60,458 bases of DNA from Pseudohongiella sp. (GTDB taxonomy: Bacteria > Pseudomonadota > Gammaproteobacteria > Pseudomonadales > Pseudohongiellaceae), in NCBI GenBank assembly GCA_030651695.1, contig JAUSCD010000010.1:1-60458 (forward strand), given 5' to 3'. Positions within the stretch are counted from its first letter, which is position 1. Every line of letters starts with the position of its first letter. Shown here piece by piece: positions 10,352-36,357 of the stretch. Below the pieces are notes generated by a model. The model saw only the letters and a program-made list of their open reading frames with translations. It did no database searches and was not told the origin of the DNA. The position numbers were made by a program, and so were the translations under genes.

Positions 10352-10361
10352 AATCTACCCC

Positions 10362-13736: not shown

Positions 13737-16481
13737 TTACTTGAGTACTCTGACAAATGTGGTCGAAGTTAGTTTCTTCTGCACACCTTGGTGCATGAAA
13801 TTCGCGCTGACGGTTAATGGCACTTCGTCGCCCGAGGGCATATTACTATCGATTAAGGCCTTGTCGAAAGTCAGAACAAGAGCGCTGCCGTCGTCAGCCA
13901 TCACAGCGGCAGTTGCCAGGAACAACTGCGTTGTCAGAGGAGCTTTAAGTCTCACGCTCTCCTCTCCATCCAGCACATAGCCAGCCGGCAGTTCGAACCT
14001 GGCCTCAACCAGACCCTGTACGCTTGTAAAAATGCCGTTCCCGGATCGCATGTCCAATTCATTCGGGACAAAAGACAGAGCCCCCGGCAAGTCCTGAGCA
14101 TCGAGCGTAACAACTACCTTGCCAACTGGTCGCGGATCGGTACAGTCGTTGTAGAAGTACTCACCCTCCTTGTCGAATGTGTACTCTGCGGTCTCTCCCG
14201 GTTGCAGTCTGAAGTTGAATTTGCCTTCAAAGAACTGGGTAGCGCAGTGCTCCAGTACATTCGGGCTATCAGGGAATGTTTCTGCACCCGGATTCCGAAA
14301 TGTGACTGTAGTGCCGACAGGAACTGTCCGGACAGAAGGAACCATGGCCCCGGTTGCAGTGCTATCAGCGAACGAGTTGGCATTGCCGTTGGATCGCGCA
14401 ATCCATATCTCATTGGCAGGTACCATACCCTCACCAGTATTACCAACAGGACGACGCCAGGTTGCAATCGGGGGGGGAGCCGGAGCTTCCTGACTCCCGG
14501 TCACATAGTCAGGGTTCGAGCGCGGGCCTTCGTGATACAACGCATTACCTGCGATCTTGAAAGCAAACACTGCCTGACCATTGAAGTCCTGGGAATATGG
14601 CTGTCTCCCTGCCATGTTTGTTGTTGCGATGAACTGCTCACCATCGATTTCGTATGAAATCGTCCCTGCCTGACTCGGAGCGCCCATCTGGTAGCGCCAC
14701 AACTCATCTCCTGTCTCCGCGTCGCGCCCCACCAAGAACCCGTCCATCTGAGTATGGAAAAGCAGATCAGTGGCTGTCACCAACGGGTTGTGCTGACGGG
14801 AGAGATCAAGTTCCAGCGGCTTGTACCAAACCATCTCGCCGGTAGAGTTGTTGAGCGCTGCCAACCCGCCTGTCTGGTATCCTCCGATCTGGCGCAACCC
14901 GTTACCACCTTGCTGTAGCGGGTGCCCTACAGGGCTGAAAGACATGCCGACATAGCGCATATTCAGCCTCGGGCTCATCGACGTATTGGTCATGTCGTTG
15001 CCGCCATTTTGACTGGTCATCGACATCGTTACGAAACCGTCATATGAGCCATCGTACATGCAACCTTTATAAGGCAGCGGTCCGATCAGGAACGGCTCGG
15101 ACGGAGTCAAATAATTTGATGGGTTCAGCACCAGTCGCAATTGACCGGGCCGTTCCGGATCAGGCTCAGCCTGGTACCCGTTCCAGTTTGGCACCATACG
15201 GTTCTGGTCGCCGGGCACCTCTGATCCAAGGTTCTGCAGCGAGACACACTGCGGATAGAAATAACCCTGCAATGGGAAAGGCTGTGTCAGCGCAGGCGCC
15301 TGGCGAATATCTGCCGGAACCTCACGATATTCGATGGGAAGCGCCGGCTGGCCATTGGTTCGATCCAAAGTGAACTGGAATCCTGACTTGCTGCCGTAGA
15401 ACAAGACTTTCTTCAACTCGTCTTCAATCATCACGTCGGCTAGTGTCGGCGGGAGGGAGTTGTCCATATCCCAAATGTCGTGACGGACCATCTGAAAGTG
15501 CCACTTGTACTCTCCTGTCTTCACGTCAATCGCAACCAGCGAACTACCGAACAGATTGTCACCCGGCCGACCCTCACCATTCTGCGAACCGTTGCAGCTA
15601 CGTACGTTGCCAAATGTCTGATACAGCAACCCAAGCTCAACGTCGATAGTGGGGTGCATCCATGGTGTAGCACCCGCAGTCAGATAACAATCGTTCGGAG
15701 TGTCGTTTGGCGTTTCACGCGTGGTGAAGGTATGGCCTGCGTCGAACGTAATTCCGTTCACATCGGTGAACGAAGTACCTGCCGGATAAGTACTGTAGAA
15801 ATGCCAGACTAAAGCACCATCGCTGGCGCGCAGCGCAAAAAGTGTACCGCGGTTGCTGCCATCATTAGTGCCCATGTAGACCAGCCCGTCATGATAAGTC
15901 GGACGCACTTTGGCAATGTTACCGAACTCGCTGCCATCAGGTGCTACTGGTTGCACTGCCCACACAATCTCTCCGGTATCTTTGTCCAGCGCCACCATAC
16001 GGTTGCCACCGGCAGATGTAAAAACTTTACCCTCAGCTACGGATACACCGCGCTGCTGGAACGTAGGACCAAAACCATTTGCCTCCTCCGACGGGACCCA
16101 CTTCCACTTAACTGCACCAGTAGCACCATCAAGCGCAGCGACTCCACCACCAGGAACGTTCAGATACATGATGCCATCGACAACAATTGGCGTGGTCTGT
16201 TGCGCCGTTACATCGCTGCCCGGCCCAGCCACAGGCGCTGTCACGGGTTCGGCGGAAAGTTGAGTCATCCAGGCCAGGCCCAGATTATTCAGGTTGGATT
16301 TGCTTATCTGAGTTAGTGCGGTGTAACCCTGGCCGGCATGACTACCAGTCGTAACAGGCCAATCACTGGTGGCAGGCGCACAGCAGTCCTCAGCCGCACC
16401 TGCGGTTCTGATTGCTGTTGTGAGGGCCGCCACTGCGGTAATGGCGATCAACGCCGGCGCCACGGTGTAGCGTAATTTCAT
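13737..16481 (-). CDS. Periplasmic PQQ-dependent dehydrogenase with C-terminal cupredoxin-like domain
   Basis: The protein has 914 residues and a signal peptide ending near AGAAED. Residues about 40-680 form a quinoprotein alcohol-dehydrogenase-type propeller with the usual repeats (YTALTQISKSNLNNLGLAWM, GMYLNV-like blades, GNRMVALDKDTGEIVW). Residues about 687-790 form a cupredoxin-like fold (VPVGTTVTFRNPG, then EYTFDKEGEYFYNDC). The copper site is degenerate. His before Cys in LEHC and the Cys in YNDCTDPRPVG are present, but the usual C-terminal His and Met ligands are not seen. A last beta-rich domain covers 795-914. No CxxCH haem motif exists, so electrons do not leave through a fused cytochrome. 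It is 60 bases after the TIM-barrel gene on the same strand, a likely operon. The substrate (alcohol, polyol or aldehyde) is unknown. Confidence 0.88.
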   Translation of the reverse strand: MKLRYTVAPALIAITAVAALTTAIRTAGAAEDCCAPATSDWPVTTGSHAGQGYTALTQISKSNLNNLGLAWMTQLSAEPVTAPVAGPGSDVTAQQTTPIVVDGIMYLNVPGGGVAALDGATGAVKWKWVPSEEANGFGPTFQQRGVSVAEGKVFTSAGGNRMVALDKDTGEIVWAVQPVAPDGSEFGNIAKVRPTYHDGLVYMGTNDGSNRGTLFALRASDGALVWHFYSTYPAGTSFTDVNGITFDAGHTFTTRETPNDTPNDCYLTAGATPWMHPTIDVELGLLYQTFGNVRSCNGSQNGEGRPGDNLFGSSLVAIDVKTGEYKWHFQMVRHDIWDMDNSLPPTLADVMIEDELKKVLFYGSKSGFQFTLDRTNGQPALPIEYREVPADIRQAPALTQPFPLQGYFYPQCVSLQNLGSEVPGDQNRMVPNWNGYQAEPDPERPGQLRLVLNPSNYLTPSEPFLIGPLPYKGCMYDGSYDGFVTMSMTSQNGGNDMTNTSMSPRLNMRYVGMSFSPVGHPLQQGGNGLRQIGGYQTGGLAALNNSTGEMVWYKPLELDLSRQHNPLVTATDLLFHTQMDGFLVGRDAETGDELWRYQMGAPSQAGTISYEIDGEQFIATTNMAGRQPYSQDFNGQAVFAFKIAGNALYHEGPRSNPDYVTGSQEAPAPPPIATWRRPVGNTGEGMVPANEIWIARSNGNANSFADSTATGAMVPSVRTVPVGTTVTFRNPGAETFPDSPNVLEHCATQFFEGKFNFRLQPGETAEYTFDKEGEYFYNDCTDPRPVGKVVVTLDAQDLPGALSFVPNELDMRSGNGIFTSVQGLVEARFELPAGYVLDGEESVRLKAPLTTQLFLATAAVMADDGSALVLTFDKALIDSNMPSGDEVPLTVSANFMHQGVQKKLTSTTFVRVLK

Positions 16482-16541: not shown

Positions 16542-17570
16542 TTAGATAGCTATGCCGCTACCCGATTCTTGCAGTGCTGTGCGTACGGTGAGCACATCTC
16601 TCCTGATTGCGCCGAGCACTACATCGCGCGGCAAGGTCAGCTCTGTGCTGCCATGGTTCGCACCGCCCAGCGAGTCGTCATACTCAGCCTGCAGATCCAT
16701 CAACCCGGTGTAACCGATCTCACGTAAAACCTCTCCGTATCGGAAAAAATCTACCCAACCAGTACCAAGTGCAACATCTTGGAATCCCCAGCCAAGCCCG
16801 CGTATAGAATGCCTGACCTGCTCATCCACAATACGTGGGTCCTGAACCGGCCTGCGATCTTTCCAGCTGATAGTTGTCAAATATGGCGCCGCAGTCCTCA
16901 GCAGGGTTTCCCACATAGCACCGTGATTGGACATATGACCAGTGTCCCAGTGCAGACCTACGTGTCTGGGGTCAAATTCACCCAGTATATAGAGCAGATC
17001 CCAGACAACACTGCCAACCGAAACCGCCCCGGATCTCGTGTGGTATTGGATTTTGGCGCCATGCCTCTCATTAAGAGCCACAAATCTTTCAACCTTGCGT
17101 TTTATTTCATCCAGCTGAGGCATGACAGGTTTGCTGAAATCGTAGCGATCGGTGCCTAACCAATAAGTGCTGATACCCAGATCACTCATGGTTCCAACCA
17201 GACGCTCCACATCTGCATCAACGTCTGTCTGATTGCCTCCTCGAATCTGCCGTACCTCAATTCCTTCACTGCGCAAAGCGTTTACAAAACGTGGCAGTTC
17301 CGTAGTGACATTACTCAACGATACATGGGCGCTTCCCTCACCGACCGATAACAGGAGACTGCCGCAGGTTAACTCTCTGCAAGCTTCCGCAATCTCGACT
17401 GGGTCCCGCAACCAGTGCAGGTAGCGTGAATAGGCATCAACGCCGGGAACCTGAGGATACTGCCCGGCTGTTGTCGGCGAAGAGGTCGCTTGGCCATAAG
17501 AACGTTTTGCAAGGACACTGCCCATCAATCCAGCCACTAAACTGGAGCTTATAAAATCCCGTCTGTTCAT
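16542..17570 (-). CDS. Tat-exported TIM-barrel protein of the sugar phosphate isomerase/epimerase family
   Basis: After a twin-arginine signal (MNRRDFISSSLVAGLMG, cleaved near SYGQA) the protein has the xylose-isomerase-like TIM barrel. The metal-site segments are IQYHTRSG, GLHWDTGHMSNHG, ISWKDRRP and MDLQAEYD. These supply His, Asp, His and Glu ligands for a divalent metal. Members of the superfamily isomerise or epimerise sugars and cyclitols, and some dehydrate 3-dehydroshikimate to protocatechuate. The exact reaction cannot be assigned. Of three close starts I prefer the ATG at 17570, eight bases after AGGAG. Export to the periplasm and pairing with a PQQ dehydrogenase suggest both act on the same substrate there. 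Confidence 0.85.
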   Translation of the reverse strand: MNRRDFISSSLVAGLMGSVLAKRSYGQATSSPTTAGQYPQVPGVDAYSRYLHWLRDPVEIAEACRELTCGSLLLSVGEGSAHVSLSNVTTELPRFVNALRSEGIEVRQIRGGNQTDVDADVERLVGTMSDLGISTYWLGTDRYDFSKPVMPQLDEIKRKVERFVALNERHGAKIQYHTRSGAVSVGSVVWDLLYILGEFDPRHVGLHWDTGHMSNHGAMWETLLRTAAPYLTTISWKDRRPVQDPRIVDEQVRHSIRGLGWGFQDVALGTGWVDFFRYGEVLREIGYTGLMDLQAEYDDSLGGANHGSTELTLPRDVVLGAIRRDVLTVRTALQESGSGIAI

Positions 17571-17710
17571 GGTCATCACTCCTCATGCTGGGCATGCTGC
17601 AGGCAGGGCGACCCCGACCAGCGCTTTTTATACAATCGTGCGTTACAACATCAAATTTGACTATTTCATAGTGAGGCGATCTCAAGCCACCTCGAAATCT
17701 GTACCAATCT

Positions 17711-17725
17711 ATAAGTATTGGCTAT
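17711..17725 (+). promoter_or_regulatory. Candidate LysR-type operator, T-N11-A site 1
   Basis: The 15 bases ATAAGTATTGGCTAT fit the LysR consensus T-N11-A with ATA/TAT ends. They match site 2 (27506) at 14 of 15 positions. The site lies in the 394-base gap between the divergently transcribed TIM-barrel gene (start 17570) and the LysR gene (start 17965). The gap is AT-rich and holds no other gene. Confidence 0.55.
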
Positions 17726-17964
17726 GACCAAACGCACCCCATACTTAACGTAGAAAAAAGTACAGAAAGCGCATCAGCAAGTGCGCCCAGGGGGACCACT
17801 CATTTCACACCACCCCCATTAGAATTAATACAAATTTTGTAGCAAAAACACATTTCTTATGGTTAAGTTAGAAAAAAGTATCCCATAGAACAAGCAGTGT
17901 CGAACCCTCGATTCCTGCACCGCATTATAAGAAATAGCTATAAAGCTAATAAAAGGGAGGGCAT

Positions 17965-19164
17965 GTGAGCGAGCTTCGGAATCTTCGACATTTATATAGC
18001 CTGCTGGACATTGCGAAACTGGGGAGCATTACCAAAGCAGCGGAAGCTGCCAACCTCTCACAGTCTGCACTGACACAAGGCCTGAACAAAATTGAAGAAA
18101 CCCTGAAAGCCTCTCTTTTCGAGAGAACTGCGAGCGGAATGTTTCTGACAAAATCAGGAGAGGTCTTTATCGCGCGACTGGAGCGAGCCTTGGAGCATCT
18201 CAAGGCTTTCGACACTGAGCTACAAAAAAAACAACGCGGAAAAGGCCCAAACCGATTTCATAAACGCGTCAGCGTATGTCAGCTTCGCGCAGTCATTGCA
18301 ACCGTGGAACACGGGAGTTTCAGTCACGCAGCAACGTCAATGGGCATTGCCCAGCCCACAGTTCACAGAGCAGTACGTGATGTAGAAGGCTTGTGCGATG
18401 TGCAGCTATTTATCCGTTCGCCCTCAGGCGTAGACTCTACACCTCTGGCACGACGCATGGCACTTCTTTCGAGTATTGCATTTTCAGAATTAAATCAAGG
18501 CGTGATTGAAGTTCAGGAACTAATCGGGCAGATGACTGGAAAATTGATAATAGGCAGCCTGCCTCTTGCCAGAACCAAGCTCATCCCGGACTCTGTCTCA
18601 GAACTGCTAAAACATTATCCCGAAGTTCAGGTAAGTATTGTGGATGGGCCATATGATGAACTTCTGCATGCACTTTTGCATAGCAGGATAGATATGATAG
18701 TCGGTGCACTTCGCAACCCCCCGCCGGTCAAGGAGATTACGCAAGACCATTTATTTGATGCCCCTTTATCAGTTGTAGTCAGAGCCGGCCACCCGCTGCT
18801 TCAGCGCAAGCAACTGAATATTGAGGACTTAACTACACTGGACTGGATAGCGCCGAAGGAAGGCACCCCTGCACGGGAGCGATTTACCAATATATTCCTC
18901 AATCAAGGATTGGAGCCGCCAAAACAGGTAATTGAGTGCAGCTCTTCAGTTGCCGTCCGAGGACTGCTTCTTGTAAACGATCGGGCAGCGCTGCTTTCAA
19001 CAGCCCAGATGCAACCGGAAATTAATGCAAAGTTACTAGCCGCCCTTCCTATAAATCTGAATGCCAGCAGACCAATTGGCGTAGCGCTTCGACGCGGCTG
19101 GAAAGCAACCGCAGTCCAAAATCACTACCTTAAAATTCTTACCGATCTTGCAAGACTCTCCTGA
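17965..19164 (+). CDS. LysR-type regulator with two tandem N-terminal HTH domains
   Basis: This regulator is 399 residues long, about 90 more than usual. Residues about 9-66 are a LysR HTH (SLLDIAKLGSITKAAEAAN, LSQSALTQGLNKIEE). Residues about 84-143 are a second LysR HTH (CQLRAVIATVEHGSFSHAAT, GIAQPTVHRAVRDVE). From about 170 on is the substrate-binding domain (GKLIIGSLPLARTKLIPDSV). The start is GTG at 17965 with AGGGAGG just upstream. The ATG two bases earlier runs straight into TGA. It is divergent from the TIM-barrel/PQQ genes and upstream of outer-membrane genes. Shared T-N11-A sites suggest it also controls the lig operon. The effector is unknown. Confidence 0.92.
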   Translation: MSELRNLRHLYSLLDIAKLGSITKAAEAANLSQSALTQGLNKIEETLKASLFERTASGMFLTKSGEVFIARLERALEHLKAFDTELQKKQRGKGPNRFHKRVSVCQLRAVIATVEHGSFSHAATSMGIAQPTVHRAVRDVEGLCDVQLFIRSPSGVDSTPLARRMALLSSIAFSELNQGVIEVQELIGQMTGKLIIGSLPLARTKLIPDSVSELLKHYPEVQVSIVDGPYDELLHALLHSRIDMIVGALRNPPPVKEITQDHLFDAPLSVVVRAGHPLLQRKQLNIEDLTTLDWIAPKEGTPARERFTNIFLNQGLEPPKQVIECSSSVAVRGLLLVNDRAALLSTAQMQPEINAKLLAALPINLNASRPIGVALRRGWKATAVQNHYLKILTDLARLS

Positions 19165-19345
19165 TCTTGTAAATAGCGTTTCCGTATAGCACGGTCCATA
19201 ATTCTAATTCGACAGACTGCCATACTAAAAAGATAATTGTCCGATTGCACCTCAATTCTATTGGCGAATATCCTCACCACTAGAACAAGAGAAATGCATC
19301 CTGAATTACTTTTAGCAATAATCTCTTATCGGGATAGTCGTCGTA

Positions 19346-21724
19346 ATGAAACACGAAAAAATAAGAAATTTGAGTAGTTTTCTTGTGCCAATATTCGCTG
19401 TGTTCCCTGTCACGTCTGAAGCGCAAAACCCTACCATTTTCCGGGCAGATATAGATGCTAGTGAAATCCGGATTGATGGTCGTATCGATGAAGCTGTCTG
19501 GCTCGATACAATCGTATTCGATCAGCTTCTTGTAATAAATCCGGATTCACTGGCCATACCTGCGTACAAAACTGAAATCAGGGCTTTCTATAATGATGAA
19601 GGGATTTATGTCGCCGCCAAGAACTATCAGCCAACTGATACTCTTGTCGCCCGTCTGAGTGCAAGAGATGCAAGGGTCCGTCGGGACGCGTTCGGAATTT
19701 CAGTGGATCCGTCAGGAAGGGGGCTGTACGGCTATAACATGCGGGTACATTTGGGCGGAAGCGTTTCCGACGGAACCATACTACCGGAACGTCAAATGTC
19801 GCGTGATTGGGATGGTCCATGGCGGTCAGCAACACAAGAGCTTGATGATGGCTGGTCAACTGAAATTTTTATCCCTTGGTCCATGATGTCACTGCCTGCT
19901 GCTGGCAACGAGGCCAGACAAATCGGGCTCTATTTTGAAAGAACTGTAGCGCATTTGAACCAGACATGGTCCTGGCCACCACTACCGAACACCGCACCAC
20001 AGCATCTCTCCGCCTACGCCAAATTCGATATTCAAGGTATTGCTCCAAAACCACAGCTAATATATTACCCATATGTTTCATCGTCTTATGACAATTTAAG
20101 TGGCCGCACCGACTCACGGGCCGGGACGGATCTCTACTGGCGCCCCAACTCAAACACTCAGATTTCCGCAACAATCAACCCGGACTTTGGAACGGTAGAA
20201 TCTGACGACATTGTTGTAAATCTTGGTGCATTTGAAACCTTCTTCTCCGAGAAACGTTCGTTTTTTCTTGAGGGAAATGAAATTTTTAACGCGCACCCGC
20301 GGGCAATCGGAGGACAGTCACCCCTGACCCTGCTCAACACACGCAGAATAGGCGCCTCCGCGGACTACGATTTTCCGCAAGATTTCCAATACACTGCAAC
20401 GGATCGCAACCAGCCATCAGACCTTATTGGCGCAGCAAAAGCTACCGGCCAGACTGGTTCGCTCAGATATGGTGTGATGATCGCTGCAGAAGATGACGCT
20501 GCCCTCAGAGGCCTGAGCGCAGACAATCAACAACAGACTATTTATGCTGATGGCAAAGACTTTTTAATCGGCAGGCTACTATACGAAAATACTTCAGGAG
20601 GCGGGCGGCAAAGTATCGGCTGGATGGGAACTCATCTCTCGCATCCGAATACAACAGCGACTGTTAATGCCATCGATATGCACTATTTTTCAGTTGATGG
20701 CTTATGGGCAGTCGATACTCAGTTTCTCCACAGCGATGTAAATGGAACATCTGGTGCAGGCATGATCACTGACGTAGCTTTCAGCCCTGGCCAAGGCATC
20801 AAACACAGCATCGCAAGCAGTTATCTGGATAAAAAAATCGAACTGAACGATGCAGGCTTCATGCGCAGAAATGACGAGGTATCCCTGGACTATACCTTTA
20901 CCATCAGTCGCTCTGGATTCGAGCGCTACCGGACTCAGGAAAGCACCATACGACTAGTGAATCAGTGGAATACGTCTGGCCACCCCGTCAGAACCGGGCT
21001 ATTTGCAGAACAGGAATATACTTTCTATAACAACTCGACCTTGGCGCTGGACATCCGCTACTATCCTCCCCGTATCGACGATCGTGCTTCGCGCGGCAAC
21101 GGAAGTTACAAAATCCCTTCCCGTTTTGCGGCCGAGGCAACCTGGCAAAGTGATCGGTCAAGGCCGTTAAGTTTGCTGTTGTCTGCCGGCAACACCCAGG
21201 AAGACCTTCAGCGATCAAACATTGGTTTGACTGCCGGACTAGTCTGGCAACCGAATGACAAGTTTTTCTTCGAAAACGAGATTTCCTACAACGACAGGAA
21301 CTCGCTTTTAGTCCGTAGTGATCCGGGTTTCATGACTGCATACACAGCAAATGAATGGAATTTCCGTTTAAATGCCAACTACTTTTTGACTTCCCGCCAA
21401 CAATTCAGAATGAGTACGCAATGGAGTGGTTTAAAGGCACACGAAGACAAACACTATAGAATTGATCAGCAACGAATAGCGTCGTTGAACAGGATATTTA
21501 CACAGCCAAAAGTATCCAAAGACTTCAATGTGAGCAGATTGAGCTTTCAGGCCCGGTACCAATGGGAAATAGCCCCACTATCAGATCTGTTTTTAGTATA
21601 CACAAGAGGCAGCAATCTTGATCCGGACTTCGACGGCAGTTTTCCCACACTGCTACAGGAAGCGTGGAGTGAGCGAATTTCTGAAACTTTTGTGGCAAAA
21701 GTCCGTTACCGATTTGGTGGTTAA
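19346..21724 (+). CDS. DUF5916 outer-membrane protein with CBM9-like domain
   Basis: The 792-residue protein has a signal peptide (ending VTSEAQ). A family-9 carbohydrate-binding-module-like domain follows (IRIDGRIDEAVWLDT, then FYNDEGIYVAA and EIFIPWSMMSLP). From about residue 250 there is a large beta-barrel-like domain of the DUF5916 type, containing NPDFGTVESDDIVVN and FFSEKRSFFLEG, with an aromatic-rich C-terminus KVRYRFGG. Proteins of this family are widespread in aquatic bacteria that degrade polymers, but no biochemical role is settled. It may bind or pass a ligand across the outer membrane. It lies between the LysR gene and a TonB receptor on the same strand. A 181-base gap before it may hold its own promoter. 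Confidence 0.88.
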   Translation: MKHEKIRNLSSFLVPIFAVFPVTSEAQNPTIFRADIDASEIRIDGRIDEAVWLDTIVFDQLLVINPDSLAIPAYKTEIRAFYNDEGIYVAAKNYQPTDTLVARLSARDARVRRDAFGISVDPSGRGLYGYNMRVHLGGSVSDGTILPERQMSRDWDGPWRSATQELDDGWSTEIFIPWSMMSLPAAGNEARQIGLYFERTVAHLNQTWSWPPLPNTAPQHLSAYAKFDIQGIAPKPQLIYYPYVSSSYDNLSGRTDSRAGTDLYWRPNSNTQISATINPDFGTVESDDIVVNLGAFETFFSEKRSFFLEGNEIFNAHPRAIGGQSPLTLLNTRRIGASADYDFPQDFQYTATDRNQPSDLIGAAKATGQTGSLRYGVMIAAEDDAALRGLSADNQQQTIYADGKDFLIGRLLYENTSGGGRQSIGWMGTHLSHPNTTATVNAIDMHYFSVDGLWAVDTQFLHSDVNGTSGAGMITDVAFSPGQGIKHSIASSYLDKKIELNDAGFMRRNDEVSLDYTFTISRSGFERYRTQESTIRLVNQWNTSGHPVRTGLFAEQEYTFYNNSTLALDIRYYPPRIDDRASRGNGSYKIPSRFAAEATWQSDRSRPLSLLLSAGNTQEDLQRSNIGLTAGLVWQPNDKFFFENEISYNDRNSLLVRSDPGFMTAYTANEWNFRLNANYFLTSRQQFRMSTQWSGLKAHEDKHYRIDQQRIASLNRIFTQPKVSKDFNVSRLSFQARYQWEIAPLSDLFLVYTRGSNLDPDFDGSFPTLLQEAWSERISETFVAKVRYRFGG

Positions 21725-22021
21725 TTCCCGGCCATAGTGCTGTAGCCTTGACCACTTATTTTGGATTCCGATGGGTGTTACCTACTCCTTATAAGATCTC
21801 TTTGTCCTAATATATGCGTGGTTGCAACAACCACTAAATGCCCGTATTTACACGCACAATTCATGACCCTGGGCACAGGTCATAAATAATCTGATATAGA
21901 AAAACTTTATACCCCTTGACAGTATTTGAGGCAGGCCGGCTGTTTTATTCGTGACATACTCGGGACACTCAAGTTACTACCTTGGGGCATATTTAAATTA
22001 AAATAATATCGGAGCCAAGTC

Positions 22022-24886
22022 ATGAGTCAGTCAATAACTGAACCGTTAAACCCATCTCGAAAAATTCAGGGGAAGCAAAGCCGAAAAGTTATACGCCTTC
22101 ACCCGCTGGCGTGCGCAGTGATTCTTGCTACCACCGCGCCCACACTGTACGCGCAGAATCAACAGGCCATTGAAGAGATCGTTGTTCGCTCCACCGCAAC
22201 CGGCACCGGTATTCGAGGCATCGCGCCTGTCGGATCACCGTCTATCAGTATCTCACGAGAGGAATTACTGGAATCCCCTGTCAGAAATGCAGCAGAAATC
22301 ATTACGGAAATGCCACAAGGGTCGCAGTTGAACTCGGGAGTTGCAAACGCTTCAGGAGGCAATGGTGGTGGCGCACGCGGCCTGAATCTGAGAGGTCTTG
22401 GTACTAACGCCTCGCTTATGCTGGTTAACGGCCACCGTCCTGTCGGTCAAGGCATATCCACTGTTGCGCCCGACCCAGGCTCTATTCCATTTGCAGCGAT
22501 CGAGCGCGTAGAAGCGGTAATGGACGGTGTTTCATCGGTCTACGGTTCCGACGCAGTTGCGGGTGTTGTTAACTTTATTCTGCGCAACGATTTTGATGGT
22601 TTGGATGTAAAGCTGTCCGGACAATCCGGACTACAAGACAGCCGTCAGATTGACATAGTGGCGGGTCGCAACTTCGCAAATGCAAACGTCATGTTTGGCC
22701 TCACCGAAGAACGTGTAGATGCAATGCGCACTAATGAACGTGACTATCTGATGCAAGATCTACGTGCTTATGGCGGTGCAGATAATCGTTTGACCACACC
22801 GTACGCAGGCACACCCGGCACAATAGTACTCAGAAACAGGGCGATGTTTGGTATTCCAGCGAGCTTTAATGGGGTAACTGACCCAGTCACTGGCCTGCGT
22901 CGACCGACACTGGAAGAAGTTACCGCACTACGCAATCAGCCGAATCTGAGTGACGCGGGCAACTACACGACTTACCGCGGTGAAGAAGATAATACCAAAG
23001 CATTCGCTCGCGTGCGCTTCGATCTCAATGACTCACTACAGTTGACATACACCGGCCTGCTTGGTGTTCGAACAACGAGAAATGACGGAAATACCTCTTT
23101 GGCACTGAATATTACGCCAAACAGCCCGTACTATATTCCTGGTCTCGCGCCTGCAGGCCAGGCCTATACCGTCAGGTACAACGTGGCGGACGCCGGAGTA
23201 GCGTGGCCGATAACCACATCTGAAACTACCATCAACCAGTTTGTTGATGCGGAGCAGGACATCGGTGAGTGGTTGTTGCGCGGATCATTTTTCTCGGGCT
23301 CCACAGACGGCGAAGACATCAATCGTCCGGAAGCCAATAATGCAGCGCTGACCACCGACCCTGCAGGCACCCCAGCAGGCTATCGCAACTATGCTGAATT
23401 CGGAAACAACCCGGAATGGTTCAACCCGTACTTGACCACGCCGCAGGCAGGGCTCGCCGAGCATTTGATAGGCACAACAATCCGCATGGGTGAACAAAAG
23501 CAACGCGGAACCCGTGTGGGTCTAGAGGGGCCAATCTGGGAGCTGCCTGGTGGAACTGCACGACTGAATGTCGGGGCTGAGTATGTCTGGAGCACGCACT
23601 GGAACAAGTTGAATCAAGACGTACGTTTCTACGATAAAACAAACTATGTGCTGCGTGATACCCGCATAAATCGCGAAGTTAAATCCGTTTACGGTGAGGT
23701 ATACGTTCCACTTATTGATACGGCAAATTCAATGCCCGGTGTACAAAAACTGGTACTGAATATATCCGCGCGCCACGATGAATATTCAGATTTTGGCAAA
23801 ACAACAAACCCCCGCATTGGTATGAGCTGGGATGTAAATGACACCATAAGTCTGCGAGCCAGTGCAGGCACAGCATTCAGAGCGCCCTCACTAGATCAGA
23901 TAAACCCGGGAGTCAACAGCACACTCACGCGCGGTACTATTCAGGTCAATCCGGCACTAACTGGTGAATTTCCTCTCACTATCCCTTCAACTGGCACAAC
24001 AGACATCTTTGTACGAGGCGGAAGAAACCCGGATCTCGGCCCTGAAGACGCCAAGATGTGGTCAGCGGGTGTAGATCTCACACCAACAATGTTTGATGGC
24101 TTCCGCTCCAGCGTGACGTACTACAGTGTTCGCTACGAAGATCGTATCGAGACAGTTCCGAATCCTTCAACTGCTTTGAACTCTGTAGCAAACCGACAGC
24201 TGTACGCCCCATACATCACACCAATTCAACAGCCGGCAGGATGCACAGATGGCGTGCTGAACACATACCATCCGTTGTTTCAGAAATTTCTAAACATGGA
24301 AGGCACAAGATTTGCCGGTGGACCAGGGGATTGCCAGGCAGTGGCTATTTACGACCAAGGATTGCAAAATGTCGGATCGGTGAATCAGTCGGGTCTTGAT
24401 GTTCAGGCGTCATACAATTGGATGAACGACCTGGGCCTCTGGCGTGTAAGTGGTAACGTTGCAAAAATTCTTGAGCTGGAACGCACACTGATATCAGGTG
24501 GCACCTGGTTTGAGGTACTGGATCGAATTGGCTGGCAGACTTCCCTGCGCTCTAATGTACGTCTGTCCTGGTCCAGCGAAAACTGGAATGCTGCGCTCAC
24601 AACCAAACTGGAAGGAGGATACACAAATGATGCAACGCCAACTGTAACCGGCGTCAAAGTTCCAACTCAGGAGGTTGGTTCCTGGACGACGTTAGACGCT
24701 ACGCTTGCATACACTACACCTGATGACGGTTCATGGCTGGCTGGCATTAATACCACGCTTGGCGTACAGAATCTGACGGATAAACAACCTCCGATAGTGC
24801 TGAATGGCTCGCTGGCTATAGATGCCAATGTTCATAATCCGTTCGGCAGAATATGGCGCCTGGAGATCAGCAAGCGCTTCCAGTAA
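22022..24886 (+). CDS. TonB-dependent outer-membrane receptor of the putative aromatic-degradation locus
   Basis: The 954-residue protein has an extended N-terminal signal region (LHPLACAVILATTAPTLYAQ). The TonB-near segment is EEIVVRSTATGTGI. The plug motifs are NLRGLGTNASLMLVNGHRP and RVEAVMDGVSSVYGSDAVAG, and the barrel ends in LEISKRFQ. The SNLGxxATLVLVNG-like plug places it with receptors used for organic carbon sources. It follows the DUF5916 gene by 297 bases. That gap contains no gene and has one TTGACA at 21916 without a convincing -10 box. Being inside the locus that ends in the lig operon, it may import the starting compound. The ligand is unknown. Confidence 0.92.
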   Translation: MSQSITEPLNPSRKIQGKQSRKVIRLHPLACAVILATTAPTLYAQNQQAIEEIVVRSTATGTGIRGIAPVGSPSISISREELLESPVRNAAEIITEMPQGSQLNSGVANASGGNGGGARGLNLRGLGTNASLMLVNGHRPVGQGISTVAPDPGSIPFAAIERVEAVMDGVSSVYGSDAVAGVVNFILRNDFDGLDVKLSGQSGLQDSRQIDIVAGRNFANANVMFGLTEERVDAMRTNERDYLMQDLRAYGGADNRLTTPYAGTPGTIVLRNRAMFGIPASFNGVTDPVTGLRRPTLEEVTALRNQPNLSDAGNYTTYRGEEDNTKAFARVRFDLNDSLQLTYTGLLGVRTTRNDGNTSLALNITPNSPYYIPGLAPAGQAYTVRYNVADAGVAWPITTSETTINQFVDAEQDIGEWLLRGSFFSGSTDGEDINRPEANNAALTTDPAGTPAGYRNYAEFGNNPEWFNPYLTTPQAGLAEHLIGTTIRMGEQKQRGTRVGLEGPIWELPGGTARLNVGAEYVWSTHWNKLNQDVRFYDKTNYVLRDTRINREVKSVYGEVYVPLIDTANSMPGVQKLVLNISARHDEYSDFGKTTNPRIGMSWDVNDTISLRASAGTAFRAPSLDQINPGVNSTLTRGTIQVNPALTGEFPLTIPSTGTTDIFVRGGRNPDLGPEDAKMWSAGVDLTPTMFDGFRSSVTYYSVRYEDRIETVPNPSTALNSVANRQLYAPYITPIQQPAGCTDGVLNTYHPLFQKFLNMEGTRFAGGPGDCQAVAIYDQGLQNVGSVNQSGLDVQASYNWMNDLGLWRVSGNVAKILELERTLISGGTWFEVLDRIGWQTSLRSNVRLSWSSENWNAALTTKLEGGYTNDATPTVTGVKVPTQEVGSWTTLDATLAYTTPDDGSWLAGINTTLGVQNLTDKQPPIVLNGSLAIDANVHNPFGRIWRLEISKRFQ

Positions 24887-25092
24887 TAAAAACTGCTTTA
24901 CCAATTTGCTTGCCCGGGTTCTCGAACCAGATACCCGGGCAGGTATCTTACCTTATCTCTCCCAACGTGTGCCTGTTGCGAAGGGCTTGCAGTAGTAAAT
25001 CGGCAAATCTCAAGCAGCGAAATCACGTTTTGCAAGATGCAGCCTGATACCTTTTACTTCGTTGTAAAATCTCAAACTCAGCTTGTCTTGAC

Positions 25093-25148
25093 ACCGACAG
25101 TCTGTAACCTATGCTCCCATAAGCTACAGATCCTGTCGGTTTCTTTTT
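25093..25148 (+). terminator. Rho-independent terminator downstream of the TonB receptor
   Basis: ACCGACAG at 25093-25100 pairs with CTGTCGGT at 25133-25140. An inner TCTGTA/TACAGA pairing extends the stem. The run TTCTTTTT follows. It lies about 200 bases after the receptor stop codon. The 414-base gap 24887-25300 holds no gene. Confidence 0.75.
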
Positions 25149-25261
25149 AAAATCAGCTTCTCAGTACAGCTAACGGTAGCCCTGAATAGTTTACCGACAC
25201 ACTAATCGGGACAGGGACTGGGATAAGAAGAGATGGGAGGAAAGAGTGTTTATTGTGGGTC

Positions 25262-25285
25262 CCTGCAGGCCAGGCGGCCTGCAGG
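25262..25285. terminator. Short GC-rich hairpin beyond the minus-strand gene at 25301
   Basis: CCTGCAGGCC (25262-25271) pairs exactly with GGCCTGCAGG (25276-25285) across a four-base loop. It lies just after the stop of the minus-strand gene. No T-run follows on either strand, so it may be a Rho-assisted or 3'-end-protecting hairpin. Confidence 0.4.
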
Positions 25286-25300
25286 AATCCTGTGCGAGAA

Positions 25301-25984
25301 TTAATGCGGGCGAGGAAGAATAAGTTCTTTTTTAGTCAATTGATACGTGAGTTTCATCAAGTCCTTCTTTGCCATTTCACAGTGTACAGGCAAATGCTTG
25401 AGTACATCTTGCGCAACAGCCGGGTCCATTAGATCGATGAGCAAGGCCGCTGAGGGATACTGATCCTGCTGACCTCGAATTTCCTGCTCTTTGGTCTTGA
25501 TGGTGGATGTATCTGCATTCACCATCCAACTTTCTACAGCTACTACACCTTCCAAACCTTGAAGCGTATGCAGACGATCCGACAACTCTTGCTTTACCTC
25601 AGGACAAATACCCTTTGAGCCGTCATCCAGACGCAAGGAAAGCAGATACCCCCCTATCCCTATGCCCCAACGATGTGTCACTCCGAAAGCACCCCGTACA
25701 GTACTGTGATAACGCGGAAATATTTTTTGAGACCAAGGGCTTGGATTGCGTAATGAGTGTAAATACGCATCACAGGAAAGATCATCAACACTCACTGTGT
25801 CATACCGGCTGAAATACAGAGATCCGTCGCCAGTCATATTTTTATAGTTTCTGGCGCGCAGAAATCCCTCAATTACAACTCTGTCGTGATAGTGTTCGTT
25901 GGTATACCAGCGCTCTACTTCAGCTTCACTTCCGGGCTCAACACAATGCCAGACGCCAAGCGCGCCTTTTCCTGCTAGTTTCAT
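25301..25984 (-). CDS. Uncharacterised protein with EthD-like ferredoxin-fold appearance
   Basis: This 227-residue soluble protein begins GKGALGVWHCVEPGSEAEVE, followed by WYTNEHYHDRVVIEGF. The WY..EH..R...PGF-like pattern is seen in small alpha+beta barrel proteins of the EthD/antibiotic-monooxygenase type. A second half (LRLDDGSKGICPEV, then LHTLQGLEGVVAVESWMV) could be another such fold, so it may be a two-domain barrel. It lies 33 bases downstream of the MFS transporter on the same strand and is very likely co-transcribed with it. No catalytic residues can be named. A role in handling an aromatic or quinone-like intermediate is speculation based on neighbours. Confidence 0.7.
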   Translation of the reverse strand: MKLAGKGALGVWHCVEPGSEAEVERWYTNEHYHDRVVIEGFLRARNYKNMTGDGSLYFSRYDTVSVDDLSCDAYLHSLRNPSPWSQKIFPRYHSTVRGAFGVTHRWGIGIGGYLLSLRLDDGSKGICPEVKQELSDRLHTLQGLEGVVAVESWMVNADTSTIKTKEQEIRGQQDQYPSAALLIDLMDPAVAQDVLKHLPVHCEMAKKDLMKLTYQLTKKELILPRPH

Positions 25985-26017
25985 ACTTATTACTCCAACA
26001 TCTTCAATTTCTATAAT

Positions 26018-27334
26018 TTACTCAACAACTGAAAGGCGCTTGATATCACCAAGTACAAAAATGTACAGAAGAGCGCCAATGAGTGGCATAGATCCAACAT
26101 AGACTAACGCCGCAGCGTAACTTGTTGTGTAGAACAAAATGTAGCCAATCAATATTGGGGTGAGTATGCCAGCAAGATTTGTTATGAAATTGAACACTCC
26201 GCCACTCATTCCAATTAACTCTTTCGGAGCCACATCAGAGATAACTGTCCAGCCCAAATTCGTTATGCCTTGACCAAAGAATGCAACGCACATAATCGCG
26301 ATGACAATCACATTGCCGTCGGATCCTTTGGGCACCAAAGCTGCGAACACGATCACCGACGCCATTATGAAACCGAGGGTAATGGGTACCTTGCGACCAA
26401 TGTTTGCAGATCCGGTTTTACGCAACAGATAGTCAGAGAGTTGACCGCCACAAAGTACTCCAAGTGCGGCAGCAATATATGGCAACGCACCCCAGATTCC
26501 GGCTTGCAGAAACTGCATGTCCCGCTCACTACCAAGATAGTTGATAAAGTCGATCAGAAAAAACACCAGAACAGTGTTGCCACAGAACATAGCAGCTGAC
26601 GCCACCAGAATCTGTCGACGCCGGAACACACTGGCAAGATTTTTGAAACTGAATTTGACCCGCGCAACCTTAGGAGCCAGACCACCACCAGCTTCGATAT
26701 GATCCAACTCAGCCTGATTAGCAATCTTGCTATCATTTGGTTCGTGATACTTGCCGTAGAAGTAGAAAGCAAACAACATGCCTCCCAATCCGGCAATCAA
26801 AAACAGCGCCCTCCAGCCAAACTCAGAGGTGATCCACACCAATGGTACGCTCAGGAACGCCAGTCCTGCATATTGCCCTACTGCATAAATACTATTTGCA
26901 CGCGCACGCTCTCCCTGCGGGAACCAAGTAGCGAGAATACGGCTGTTCGCCGGAAAACAAGGCGCCTCACACAAGCCCATACCGAGCCGATAGCCGAACA
27001 TCGTCGCAAAACTGCCTGCCATGCCTTGGGCGGCGGTAAATAATGACCAACTAAAAAGCGATAGTCCGTACGTAACTCTGGTACCAAACCTGTCGAGAAA
27101 TACGCCGCCTGGTATCTGAGCAAAAGCGTATGTGAGACTGAATGCAGCGCCCAGGTAACCTATTTGCACGGCGTTCAAACCAAGATCTTCCTGCATTCCG
27201 CCCACTCGGGCAATACCAAACACAGCTCTGTCGAGGTAGTTTATGGTTGTTCCAATCAGTACCATGAATAGTATCGGAAACCAGCGTACATGAGTGCGTT
27301 GTTCATTTAAAGTGGCGCCTGCGTTCGTATTCAC
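26018..27334 (-). CDS. MFS transporter of the anion:cation symporter type
   Basis: The 438-residue protein has about twelve hydrophobic segments and the MFS signatures INYLDRAVFGIA and GGVFLDRFGTRVTYG. These fit the ACS group that imports organic anions such as hexuronates and aromatic acids. The GTG at 27334, preceded by GAGGAGAAAGAG, is a better start than an in-frame ATG 51 codons upstream, which would add a non-hydrophobic tail. It is divergent from the lig operon and shares its regulatory gap. The most likely cargo is an acidic precursor of protocatechuate or protocatechuate itself. This is inferred from position. Confidence 0.88.
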   Translation of the reverse strand: MNTNAGATLNEQRTHVRWFPILFMVLIGTTINYLDRAVFGIARVGGMQEDLGLNAVQIGYLGAAFSLTYAFAQIPGGVFLDRFGTRVTYGLSLFSWSLFTAAQGMAGSFATMFGYRLGMGLCEAPCFPANSRILATWFPQGERARANSIYAVGQYAGLAFLSVPLVWITSEFGWRALFLIAGLGGMLFAFYFYGKYHEPNDSKIANQAELDHIEAGGGLAPKVARVKFSFKNLASVFRRRQILVASAAMFCGNTVLVFFLIDFINYLGSERDMQFLQAGIWGALPYIAAALGVLCGGQLSDYLLRKTGSANIGRKVPITLGFIMASVIVFAALVPKGSDGNVIVIAIMCVAFFGQGITNLGWTVISDVAPKELIGMSGGVFNFITNLAGILTPILIGYILFYTTSYAAALVYVGSMPLIGALLYIFVLGDIKRLSVVE

Positions 27335-27505
27335 AACTCTTTCTCCTCGAGGCCATGACTTCGCTGACCCATTTTTATTGTACTTGATGCAAACATTGCA
27401 GAGGTGTTGTCCAGTAGCACGGGCCACCTGAGCAAAGTCGAGTTTTAGCGTCACTAGTATTTCATAATCTGATTTTACAAACCGCATCGAATCTCGCGAT
27501 CATCC

Positions 27506-27520
27506 ATAAGTATTTGCTAT
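27506..27520 (+). promoter_or_regulatory. Candidate LysR-type operator, T-N11-A site 2
   Basis: ATAAGTATTTGCTAT differs from site 1 (17711) at one position and fits T-N11-A with ATA/TAT ends. It lies 172 bases before the MFS start in the 429-base divergent gap (27335-27763) between the MFS gene and ligK. That gap has no gene. Confidence 0.55.
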
Positions 27521-27668
27521 ACCACCATAAAAACAATAAAAACAGCAGGGTCTCAGAATTATTCGATTCTGCAGTTGCCGCAGATGGCGATTTCTTCTTT
27601 AGCAATGAAAAGTACTTCCTTAATTTTTCCCATAAAACACCTCTTTGCAAAGGTAGACACCATTGGAT

Positions 27669-27683
27669 ATAGCTTATTCTTAT
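27669..27683 (-). promoter_or_regulatory. Candidate LysR-type operator, T-N11-A site 3
   Basis: Read on the minus strand this is ATAAGAATAAGCTAT. It matches site 2 at 12 of 15 positions and keeps both outer half-sites. It lies about 80 bases before the ligK start, a usual place for an activator site. Confidence 0.45.
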
Positions 27684-27763
27684 AGCGACACGCAGCATTC
27701 GAATCAGGACGACATACTTATTGTGGAATAATTACTGAAAGCTATTTTCCGAGGCACCGCACA

Positions 27764-28453
27764 ATGGGTATCGTTGTTACAGAATTTGAAAGAGTCAGTA
27801 GAAAGACAGCAGAAAGTATTCGCGGTTTTGGTGTTGCAACTGTGCACGAGGCCCTCGGCCGAAAAGGGCTGATGCTGCCATACATGAAACCAATATTTCA
27901 TACTGCAGCAGTAGCTGGAAGCGCAGTTACTTGCGAAGTAGCACCGGGTGACAACTGGATGATCCATGTAGCTGTTGAGCAGTGTAAAGAAGGAGACATC
28001 CTTATTGTCACCCCCACCAGCCCCTGTAACGATGGATATTTTGGTGACCTGCTCGCGACATCACTACAATGTCGCGGGGTGCGCGCATTAATAATCGATG
28101 CGGGTGTAAGAGATGTATCGACGCTCGAAGAAATGAATTTCCCCGTTTGGTCCAAAGCCGTATATGCACAGGGAACTGTGAAAGCGACATTGGCTAATGT
28201 CAATGTACCTGTTGTGTGCGCAGGCGCACTGGTCCACCCCGGGGATCTGGTAGTCGCGGACCGTGACGGCGTAGTAGTCGTACCCCGACTACTAGCAGAG
28301 GAAACACTCCGAAAATCCCTTGAACGTGAAGCCATCGAAGCTGTTAATCGCGAAAGGCTGGCTTCTGGTGAGTTAGGGCTGGACATCTACAACATGCGTA
28401 CTCGACTGGCGGAAAAAGGCCTGAGATACGTCGGCAAATACAAAGAAGAATGA
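27764..28453 (+). CDS. ligK: 4-carboxy-4-hydroxy-2-oxoadipate aldolase (RraA-like fold)
   Basis: The 229-residue enzyme cleaves 4-carboxy-4-hydroxy-2-oxoadipate to pyruvate and oxaloacetate, the last step of protocatechuate 4,5-cleavage. It can also decarboxylate oxaloacetate. The RraA-like signature is clear: [20 protein letters not shown], then [11 protein letters not shown] with the Arg-Asp pair that positions pyruvate and the metal. Length is typical. It is the first gene of a seven-gene plus-strand run with very short gaps, and lies 17 bases before the tautomerase gene. Candidate LysR sites lie upstream. Confidence 0.93.
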
Positions 28454-28470
28454 AAGGAAATCGATAGACC

Positions 28471-29565
28471 ATGCAAACTGAAATACCTTGTATGTTAATG
28501 CGTGGCGGCACATCAAAAGGCTTGTATTTCCTCGCTTCGGATTTGCCTACGGACTCGTGTAAGGTTCAAGAGGTTTTGCTTGCTGCAATGGGGTCCCCAG
28601 ATACAAGACAGATAGATGGTGTGGGCGGCGCGCACCCGCTGACCAGCAAGGTTGCAATTGTCAGTAAATCAACGGTAGAAGACGCCGATGTAGACTACCT
28701 GTTTATGCAGGTCTCTGTAGATAAACCTGAAGTCAGCGCTTCCCAGAACTGCGGTAATCTTCTTGCTGGTGTCGGCGCATTTGCCATTGAAATGGGTTTA
28801 GTGGAAGCCGGCGACGGGGCAACGAATGTGCGTATCCGCATGATTAATACCGGTAGCATTACAGTGTCAAGAGTGATCACAATAGCGGGGAAAGTCGAAT
28901 ATGAAGGTGATGCCAGAATTGATGGCGTACCTGGGACGGCAGCGCCTGTTAACCTCTACTTCCAGGATATTGCAGGCTCATCCTGCGGAGCACTTTTACC
29001 AACCGGGAACGCTGTCGACTTGATTGATGGACACAGCGCCACCTGCATCGACAACGGCATGCCGGTTGTTATCCTCGACGCCAAAGAATTTGGTAAATCG
29101 GGTTACGAAACCCCTGATGAACTTGAGTCTGACAAAGAACTCAAATCCGTTATCGAATCGATAAGGCTCAAAGCTGGCAGGATGATGAACCTCGGCGATG
29201 TCGAAAAGAAGACGGTTCCTAAAATGTGCCTGGTGGCGCCTGCCCGGAACGGCGGCCATATCTGCACAAGAAATTTTATTCCACATCGCGTACATGAAGC
29301 CATAGGTGTCCTCGGTGCAGTGAGTATTGCATCAGCTTGTATTATTGCCGACTCAGTAGCAAACAACGTTTCAACCGCAGAACTGGCGGCGGGCACACAA
29401 ACGATTGACGTAGAGCATCCTACCGGATTCTTTACCGTAGAGATAACGTCAGATATCAGCCCGGATGGCTCGGTAAAAATCGTCCGCACTGCGTTGCTGA
29501 GAACAGCACGCAAGATTATGCAGGGTTCTGTTTTTATCCCGTCAGTAGTCTGGAACCCGAAATAA
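28471..29565 (+). CDS. galD: 4-oxalomesaconate tautomerase (PrpF family)
   Basis: The 364-residue protein belongs to the PrpF isomerase family (IPCMLMRGGTSKGLYF at the start, GVGGAHPLTSKVAIV, then SQNCGNLLAGVGAFAIE). In Pseudomonas GalD and Sphingobium LigU these enzymes interconvert 4-oxalomesaconate tautomers ahead of hydration. Catalytic Cys is probably that in QNCGN. It sits between the aldolase and hydratase genes, matching this job. A PrpF role in propionate metabolism is unlikely, as no methylcitrate genes are near. Confidence 0.9.
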   Translation: MQTEIPCMLMRGGTSKGLYFLASDLPTDSCKVQEVLLAAMGSPDTRQIDGVGGAHPLTSKVAIVSKSTVEDADVDYLFMQVSVDKPEVSASQNCGNLLAGVGAFAIEMGLVEAGDGATNVRIRMINTGSITVSRVITIAGKVEYEGDARIDGVPGTAAPVNLYFQDIAGSSCGALLPTGNAVDLIDGHSATCIDNGMPVVILDAKEFGKSGYETPDELESDKELKSVIESIRLKAGRMMNLGDVEKKTVPKMCLVAPARNGGHICTRNFIPHRVHEAIGVLGAVSIASACIIADSVANNVSTAELAAGTQTIDVEHPTGFFTVEITSDISPDGSVKIVRTALLRTARKIMQGSVFIPSVVWNPK

Positions 29566-29607
29566 CATTACATCGCAGTAAAGAAAAAACAAAAAGGAGA
29601 ACCCTCA

Positions 29608-30630
29608 ATGATTATTGACTGCCACGGACACTATACAACCGCACCTGAGCCACACCAGGCCTTCCGCGAGCAGCAGATCTCGTTGTTTAACAACGGTTCT
29701 TCTGAGCAAGCCGATCTGCCGAATATCAGCGATGATATGATCAGAGAGAGTATCGAGAAAAACCAACTCAAATTGTTGCGCGAACGCGGCGCAGATATGA
29801 CCATTTTTTCGCCCCGCGCATCTGCGATGGCCCATCATATTGGGGATGGCAAGGTGTCCCGGCAGTGGACAGCAGCCTGTAACGATCTGATTCATAGAGT
29901 GGTTACACTTTATCCAGAGTATTTTATCGGGGTTTGCCAGCTACCCCAGTCTCCCGGGATACCAATTTCAGACTCAATCGCTGAACTTGAGCGCTGCATT
30001 ACAGAATTAGGTTTTATCGGCTGCAATCTGAATCCTGATCCATCAGGTGGGCATTGGACCTCGGCGCCACTCACGGACAAAAGCTGGTATCCCTTCTATG
30101 AAAAGATGGTTGAACTTGATGTACCTGCTATGATCCATGTGTCCGGCTCATGCAATCCCAATTTCCATGCTACCGGAGCACACTACATCAATGCCGACAC
30201 CACCGCCTTTATGCAGTTCATCGAGGGTGATCTGTTTAAGGATTTTCCTGAACTGCGATTTATAATCCCGCATGGTGGTGGAGCAGTTCCTTATCACTGG
30301 GGCCGCTACAGAGGACTGGCGGACATGCTTAAACGTCCTCCGCTGCCTGAGCATGTTATGAAAAATGTTTATTTTGATACCTGTGTTTATCATCAGCCAG
30401 GTATAGATTTACTCTTTGAGGTAATCGATATTGACAACATCCTCTTTGGTTCAGAGATGGTGGGGGCTGTCAGAGGCATTGATCCAGAAACCGGTTTCTA
30501 CTTTGATGACACCAAACGCTATATTGACGCTTTGGACATACCTGCAGAAGATAAAAACAAAGTCTTCGAATTAAATGCACGCCGTGTGTATCCTCGCCTT
30601 GATGAGTCGCTTAAAAAGAGAGGCTTGTGA
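29608..30630 (+). CDS. ligJ: 4-oxalomesaconate hydratase (amidohydrolase fold)
   Basis: The 340-residue protein has the metal-binding start MIIDCHGHYTTAP. His-containing segments PHGGGAVPYHWGRYRG and the later GSEMVGAVRGIDP are typical of LigJ. LigJ adds water to the pathway intermediate to give 4-carboxy-4-hydroxy-2-oxoadipate. It has an AAGGAG site before ATG and overlaps the next gene (ligI) by four bases, so translation is coupled. Confidence 0.93.
   Translation: MIIDCHGHYTTAPEPHQAFREQQISLFNNGSSEQADLPNISDDMIRESIEKNQLKLLRERGADMTIFSPRASAMAHHIGDGKVSRQWTAACNDLIHRVVTLYPEYFIGVCQLPQSPGIPISDSIAELERCITELGFIGCNLNPDPSGGHWTSAPLTDKSWYPFYEKMVELDVPAMIHVSGSCNPNFHATGAHYINADTTAFMQFIEGDLFKDFPELRFIIPHGGGAVPYHWGRYRGLADMLKRPPLPEHVMKNVYFDTCVYHQPGIDLLFEVIDIDNILFGSEMVGAVRGIDPETGFYFDDTKRYIDALDIPAEDKNKVFELNARRVYPRLDESLKKRGL

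Positions 30631-31531: not shown

Positions 31532-31532
<1 letters not shown>
30627..31532 (+). CDS. ligI: 2-pyrone-4,6-dicarboxylate lactonase
   Basis: The 301-residue amidohydrolase opens the 2-pyrone-4,6-dicarboxylate ring to 4-oxalomesaconate. Visible family features are AVDAHCHVFGPGDTFPF near the start, VVDHMGRPD in the middle and LWGTDWPHPNMK near the C-terminus, which carries the active-site Asp. The length is as expected. It overlaps ligJ by four bases and shares a base with the ligA start, so all three are translated in a chain. Confidence 0.94.
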
Positions 31533-32768
<1,236 letters not shown>

Positions 32769-32771
32769 ACA

Positions 32772-36206: not shown

Positions 36207-36357
36207 AACAAGAGGTATTGCAGGAACAATAGCGAAGTCGGCACGTTCCAATATCCACCTTGGAGGTGACTATGACTTGCCACAAATGCAGTATTTCACA
36301 ATCGGATTGTTTCGGCCGCTTCGAATGGCATCGGGCGTCATCAGGTTTTGCTATAAC

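Follow-up and report, generated by a model that had tools for sequence, protein, structure and literature searches.

Promoter boxes as predicted operators of a LigR-type LysR regulator at an aromatic acid locus of Pseudohongiella

Closely similar 15-base words recur in the promoter gaps of a locus from a marine Pseudohongiella sp., in which the gene for a LysR-type regulator lies among genes for a periplasmic PQQ pair, a TonB-dependent receptor, an MFS transporter and a lig operon, and this raises the question of whether one regulator governs the whole set. The whole stretch of DNA analysed, termed the window here, comprises 60,458 nt of contig JAUSCD010000010.1 (assembly GCA_030651695.1; genome of 3,862,836 bases, 3.86 Mb). 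The sites are very probably operators of the LigR-type regulator encoded at 17965-19164, through which protocatechuate or gallate would activate the SPI-PQQ pair, the TonB receptor gene, the MFS gene together with the gene behind it, and the lig operon; site 4 would probably be autoregulatory.

Genes and boxes of the locus

The genes of the locus are as follows.

13737-16481, minus strand: PQQ-type beta-propeller protein with a leader sequence, behind the SPI gene
16542-17579, minus strand: SPI, a xylose-isomerase-like TIM-barrel protein with a twin-arginine type leader
17965-19164, plus strand: LigR-type LysR regulator, 399 aa, with two HTH domains by profile matches
19346-21724, plus strand: DUF5916 protein, present in the relative L048 but missing here in the relative L047; candidate regulon member
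22022-24886, plus strand: TonB-dependent receptor
25301-25984, minus strand: protein of 227 aa, encoded behind the MFS gene and unmatched by any Pfam or NCBIfam family
26018-27487, minus strand: MFS transporter, true start probably near 27337
27764-33719, plus strand: lig operon, with ligK, ligU, ligJ-type and ligI-type amidohydrolases, ligA, ligB and a ligC-type oxidoreductase

LigK and the oxalomesaconate tautomerase LigU exceed curated cutoffs, and LigA and the LigB-type dioxygenase subunit exceed theirs. One amidohydrolase of the operon matches at 70.3% a gene annotated as 4-oxalomesaconate hydratase, and the other at 57.8% an annotated 2-pyrone-4,6-dicarboxylate hydrolase, each in a Sphingobium record. 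The SPI gene was found in 2/341 genomes of the order, both of the same genus as the window, and a metagenome relative outside those listed in that search also has it; among the sampled genomes of the order, this gene of the PQQ pair is confined to the genus. A role of SPI as a periplasmic 3-dehydroshikimate dehydratase that feeds protocatechuate was considered on account of its TIM-barrel family; sequence search matched SPI only weakly, to an IolE protein and to one with a xylose isomerase domain, and this role is no more than a guess. In the PQQ-type protein (13737-16481) the W-D context is kept with a second Asp two residues on (WDMD, a lanthanide-type signature). The Cys pair is absent, as apparently is the Glu, in an alignment with 1kb0, and the protein may be an atypical or empty quinoprotein. 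The 227-aa protein (25301-25984) has a counterpart of 81% identity in Gammaproteobacteria bacterium LSUCC0112. A three-gene molybdenum hydroxylase set, whose iron-sulphur subunit has a twin-arginine type leader, lies at 9362-13405; it is near the block in both close relatives too, there with a methyltransferase homolog in between.

Five boxes are considered.

Site 1, 17711-17725, plus strand: ATAAGTATTGGCTAT; CTTAT end towards the SPI-PQQ pair, 140 nt upstream of the ATG at 17570
Site 2, 27506-27520, plus strand: ATAAGTATTTGCTAT; CTTAT end towards the MFS gene
Site 3, 27669-27683, minus strand: ATAGCTTATTCTTAT on the plus strand; 80 nt upstream of ligK, CTTAT end ligK-directed
Site 4, 17927-17941, plus strand: ATAAGAAATAGCTAT; 23 nt upstream of the ligR-like GTG at 17965
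Site 5 (looser), 21896-21910, plus strand: ATAGAAAAACTTTAT; upstream of the TonB receptor gene and followed by TTGACA at 21916

The sequences of sites 1 to 3, reported in a preliminary description of this DNA, are confirmed at these coordinates; 100 dinucleotide-shuffled windows gave 0.00 matches on average. Site 4, missed at that time, is a one-mismatch match recovered by a search with mismatches allowed; with up to two mismatches the window holds 9 matches as against 3.38 expected. The statement that all sites lie in divergent gaps, made for those first described, does not extend to site 5, which sits in a non-divergent gap before the TonB receptor gene. The MFS frame as listed (26018-27487) starts too early: frame agreement with LSUCC0112 implies a GTG start near 27337, which places site 2 about 170 nt upstream of the gene and not 18 nt. 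At sites 1, 2, 3 and 5 the CTTAT end is directed towards the gene that each precedes, and the same is found in the relatives. The T-N11-A pattern of LysR-type operators, to which the words had been assigned, is present in the target promoters, and its T and A are kept in 48/48 model-accepted boxes from 57 loci, a count that is partly circular. At the ligK promoter, the centre of site 3 would lie near -63, within the span of LigR footprints (about -48 to -85), if GGAATAAT at 27725 is the -10 element.

The assignment of the words to this one locus is borne out genome-wide, since all four matches of ATAAGNANNNGCTAT fall within it and none outside (backwards control: 1). The relaxed ATWAGNANNNGCTAY has four matches in the own genome, all in the locus (control 3), six in the relative G001, four of them in the orthologous locus (control 4), and four in the relative G005, two of them in the locus, inside which the contig ends (control 4); the off-locus matches thus number 0, 2 and 2 and are not above controls. 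With TATAGNNAANNNTTAT, two of three matches in the own genome are in the locus (sites 5 and 2; control 2), as are three of four in LSUCC0112 (control 0), and the single match in the metagenome assembly lies before the TonB receptor gene (control 1).

Boxes in close relatives and distant homologs

A full-length ortholog of the regulator is encoded in 3/15 genomes of the genus, the own genome included, the other two at 90% and 89%. These relatives, the only close ones in a scan of genome contigs, are LSUCC0112 (L047) and a Pseudohongiella metagenome assembly (L048). The block of LSUCC0112 runs from the PQQ pair through to the lig genes and has no DUF5916 gene between regulator and TonB receptor; the metagenome contig stops just past the TonB receptor gene. 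The sites are kept in both relatives as far as the contigs reach. Across the three genomes 12/15 bases are kept at site 1, 13/15 at site 4 and 15/15 at site 5, which is identical in all three, and across the two genomes having the gap 15/15 are kept at site 2, identical in LSUCC0112, and 13/15 at site 3. The last base of site 1 differs in both relatives (GCTAC for GCTAT). All sites are above the mean invariance of their gaps (0.48-0.51). Site conservation is high but not unique, because between 9 and 56 of 297-427 stretches per gap do as well (site 1, 37/382; site 4, 15/382; site 2, 9/427; site 3, 56/427; site 5, 26/297). The TonB receptor promoters of L047 (11550-11577) and L048 (13906-13933) carry two overlapping boxes in opposite directions; in the window, only the gene-directed box of this promoter is among the top motif matches.

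Regulator matches occur in 48/390 genomes of the order at E <= 1e-45 and in 24/398 genomes of the phylum at E <= 1e-60. Homologs with two HTH domains, 34-51% identical to the regulator, were compared at 56 loci, mostly fetched with 1.5-kb flanks, and at least one lig homolog lies alongside in 47 of these and none in nine; in longer stretches L009, one of the nine, has lig genes on both sides. The window regulator is linked to the lig operon at a distance of about 9 kb and is not divergent from ligK. L010, L011 and L012 belong to another genus of this family; their ligR, at just 34% identity, is divergent from ligK, and a variant box, ATATCAAAAA(G/T)TAAT, lies 165-174 nt from ligK.

A 17-base motif, cTATAGCAAAAACTTAT, was learned blind from 19 divergent ligR-ligK gaps, none of the window genus, with random k-mer seeds on both strands. 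The best site is ligK-directed in 19/19 gaps, at 71-87 nt from ligK in 14 and at 110-174 nt in the other five. When the window was scanned with this motif, site 2 ranked first (23.6), site 5 second (18.8) and site 1 fourth (17.3); the two strands of site 4 scored 10.9 and 10.4, giving it the sixth and seventh ranks, and site 3 came eighth (10.3). In 100 dinucleotide-shuffled windows the best score had a mean of 12.3 and a maximum of 21.2, and the fourth best a mean of 7.9 and a maximum of 11.9. The set of matches in the window is beyond chance; the weaker sites 3 and 4 singly are not, since they score 10.3-10.9, below the mean best of the shuffled windows, and alone would not stand out. The two scores of site 4 show it to be almost symmetric in the window; it is clearly reversed (16.8) only in LSUCC0112, where it points away from ligR.

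Two further box-like words were ranked by the same scan, both on the minus strand: TTATAGCAAAACCTGAT at 36340-36356, third (17.6), upstream of a malic enzyme/phosphotransacetylase fusion gene (maeB), and TTATTGCTAAAAGTAAT at 19305-19321, fifth (14.2), 24 nt before the ATG of the DUF5916 gene. The upstream region of maeB had no match in five same-genus genomes, in a search run without a positive control, and maeB itself had none at E 1e-20 in L035-L048; on these grounds the hit at 36340 was set aside as a regulon box. Unsupported matches at 36340 and 19305 that outrank some of the five sites indicate that the blind motif alone yields false matches.

Out of sample, the 300 nt upstream of the regulator were searched at 37 loci, of which 13 are from one genus and not independent. 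The best match was equalled by no more than 3/60 mononucleotide shuffles in 28 of these loci and was directed away from the regulator in 34, and no convincing box was found in this interval in nine. Most distant homolog loci carry a homologous box upstream of the regulator. Both this conservation and the absence of exact copies elsewhere in the genome favour the preliminary description, which had named the opposite outcomes as grounds for its refutation. It could still be argued that the boxes are chance likenesses of AT-rich promoter words, given that single weak sites and single PWM matches do arise in shuffles (best up to 21.2) and that looser patterns occur off-locus at control level. Three exact matches against none expected, the confinement of all four genome matches to one locus and the recovery of the sites by a motif learned elsewhere make this hardly credible, and the explanation is largely refuted.

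The regulator and the proposed regulon

The tandem-HTH architecture first attributed to the regulator is upheld by HTH_1 matches in two stretches (111.7 bits; cutoff 26.6), alongside a LysR_substrate match of 105.8 bits (cutoff 28). The best NCBIfam match is PcaQ (TIGR02424; residues 101-395), but its status as a PcaQ equivalog was rejected, the score of 215.3 bits being below the curated cutoff of 303.8 and the pathway here one of 4,5-cleavage. In 57 sequences the two HTH domains show similar conservation (mean entropy 1.61 and 1.72 bits, against 2.58 for the stretch between them), and the recognition helices of HTH-A and HTH-B keep different residues. Structure prediction from three-sequence alignments, with mean pLDDT of 47.3 for the SPI protein and 35.1 for the regulator, was too poor for use. 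The own genome encodes other LysR proteins, with eight matches to the regulator query at E <= 0.001, and one of these, or a regulator of another kind, might bind the boxes instead. Yet all exact boxes lie in the locus, and in distant genomes it is homologs of the window regulator that adjoin the box, so that a different binding protein is very unlikely.

The operators support the single-regulator interpretation with which the locus was first described, namely one LigR-like regulator with four target promoters and its own. In this one-regulon reading the operators come from the present analysis, and binding, activation and effector are taken from homologs. The regulator would bind the 15-bp box ATAGC-N5-CTTAT upstream of each promoter, with the CTTAT end gene-directed. 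Once protocatechuate or gallate is bound, the regulator would activate the lig operon, and likewise the TonB receptor gene, the SPI-PQQ pair, and the MFS gene together with the 227-aa gene behind it. At site 4, 23 nt before its own start codon, the regulator would probably repress ligR, and autoregulation of ligR through this site is probable; a repressive role of site 4, like any control exerted by site 5, is something that we only infer. Activation at four promoters, with repression or self-tuning at the fifth, is suggested as the simplest reading. The arrangement would probably place the handling of plant-derived aromatic acids, from uptake and import through periplasmic oxidation to ring cleavage, under one switch.

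A more specific proposal, regarded as possible but on the doubtful side, is that two unlike HTH domains read the directional box ATAGC-N5-CTTAT, that the box sets the direction of activation, and that this code has been copied to new promoters in the genus. The similar conservation of the two HTH domains, the more variable stretch between them and their differing recognition helices would allow two unlike readers for two unlike half-sites. The ligK direction of all 19 learned boxes supports a directional operator, and the near-symmetry of site 4 in the window slightly lowers the odds. Covariation of box positions 6 and 7 gives mean z values of 3.6 and 2.7 with the HTH-B helix, 2.7 and 1.6 with the effector domain and 1.5 and 0.9 with HTH-A, although every region carries signal and the values are confounded by relatedness. 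If the proposal is true, one circuit would be wired from the outer membrane to ring cleavage.

Relation to known systems

As reported in PMC12710314, LigR of Novosphingobium aromaticivorans gives DNase footprints at the promoters of two ring-cleavage operons, at about -48 to -85, with a consensus, TT-N-GC-N6-TTAT, that is common to the LigR sites of N. aromaticivorans and SYK-6. The ligR transcript of N. aromaticivorans is described there as unchanged with aromatics, so autoregulation is not shown for that species. LigR of SYK-6 is described as an activator with protocatechuate and gallate as effectors and with ligJABC, ligKUI and ligR as its regulon (PMC6888825). The Pseudohongiella system resembles both in the LysR type of its regulator, in the association of ligR with lig operons and in a box upstream of the promoter, but ligR is divergent from ligK in the known LigR systems and about 9 kb away from it here. 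Sites 1-4, on the ATAGC-N5-CTTAT strand, agree with the published consensus at 8/9 fixed bases. The exception is the first base, A here for the published T, which counts against the operator reading; site 5 has the same A and is also without the C of GC.

N. aromaticivorans LigR, as described, acts at two promoters, whereas boxes are present here at four target promoters and at ligR, including those of the TonB receptor, the MFS importer and the periplasmic PQQ pair. The regulator might instead be confined to its own gene, the MFS gene and the lig operon, the boxes of the SPI-PQQ pair and TonB receptor being weakly bound or serving another signal, with no single supply line. This narrower regulon would fit the N. 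aromaticivorans precedent, the altered last base of site 1 in both relatives, the incomplete GC of site 5 and the rarity of the SPI gene (2/341 genomes). It is nevertheless rather unlikely: by blind-motif score site 5 comes second in the window and site 1 fourth, all three genomes share the same site 5, and 12/15 bases of site 1 are kept. In the preferred reading, with one regulator at all five promoters, the regulon appears wider here, with the TonB receptor, the MFS importer and the periplasmic PQQ pair as predicted members.

Regulator, operator and ring-cleavage operon are of a known kind, and because regulator and box are those of LigR they are not new. New would be the wider regulon and, throughout the family, the association between a tandem-HTH protein and a directional box. 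Among the literature matches listed (titles and abstract starts, with few subscription journals), no description of a tandem-HTH LysR protein was found, nor any report of this regulon, whether among papers on Pseudohongiella and aromatic compounds such as protocatechuate or among those on TonB receptors and lignin aromatics; the words "domain" and "helix-turn-helix" are both absent from the main text of the LigR paper (PMC12710314). Three matching words have thus been developed into a testable regulon, in which the receptor of the outer membrane, the importer and the periplasmic PQQ pair are candidates for feeding a protocatechuate/gallate pathway in this marine genus of Gammaproteobacteria. 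The analysis extends the LigR box, known from footprints in sphingomonads, to homologs across Pseudomonadota, and the tandem-HTH architecture might account for its asymmetry.

The LigR-type assignment was made by gene linkage and box, and the protein comparison was made with FldY of Sphingobium sp. TomTYG65 (AP027331.1, L113), which is 33.5% identical to the window regulator (residues 6-389). FldY is a 383-aa LysR protein with two HTH_1 stretches, encoded divergently from the ligK homolog fldZ, and the fldY-fldZ gap carries TTAGCAAAATCTAAT. An oxidoreductase and an oxalomesaconate hydratase follow, in the gene order reported for N. aromaticivorans; no PQQ pair or TonB receptor is annotated within 5 kb. 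By analogy with FldY, we infer that LigR itself may have two HTH domains. GalR of Pseudomonas putida KT2440 is a LysR activator of gallate degradation via 4-oxalomesaconate, with a predicted T-N11-A site before galB that, by its description, resembles CTATA-N9-TATAG with AACGCAT in the right part, and an MFS transporter and a porin are also encoded by gal genes (PMC9942251). For the outer membrane, DdvT of SYK-6, likened here by description, provides a precedent for TonB-dependent uptake of a lignin-derived aromatic (PMC6874591, PMC8599685).
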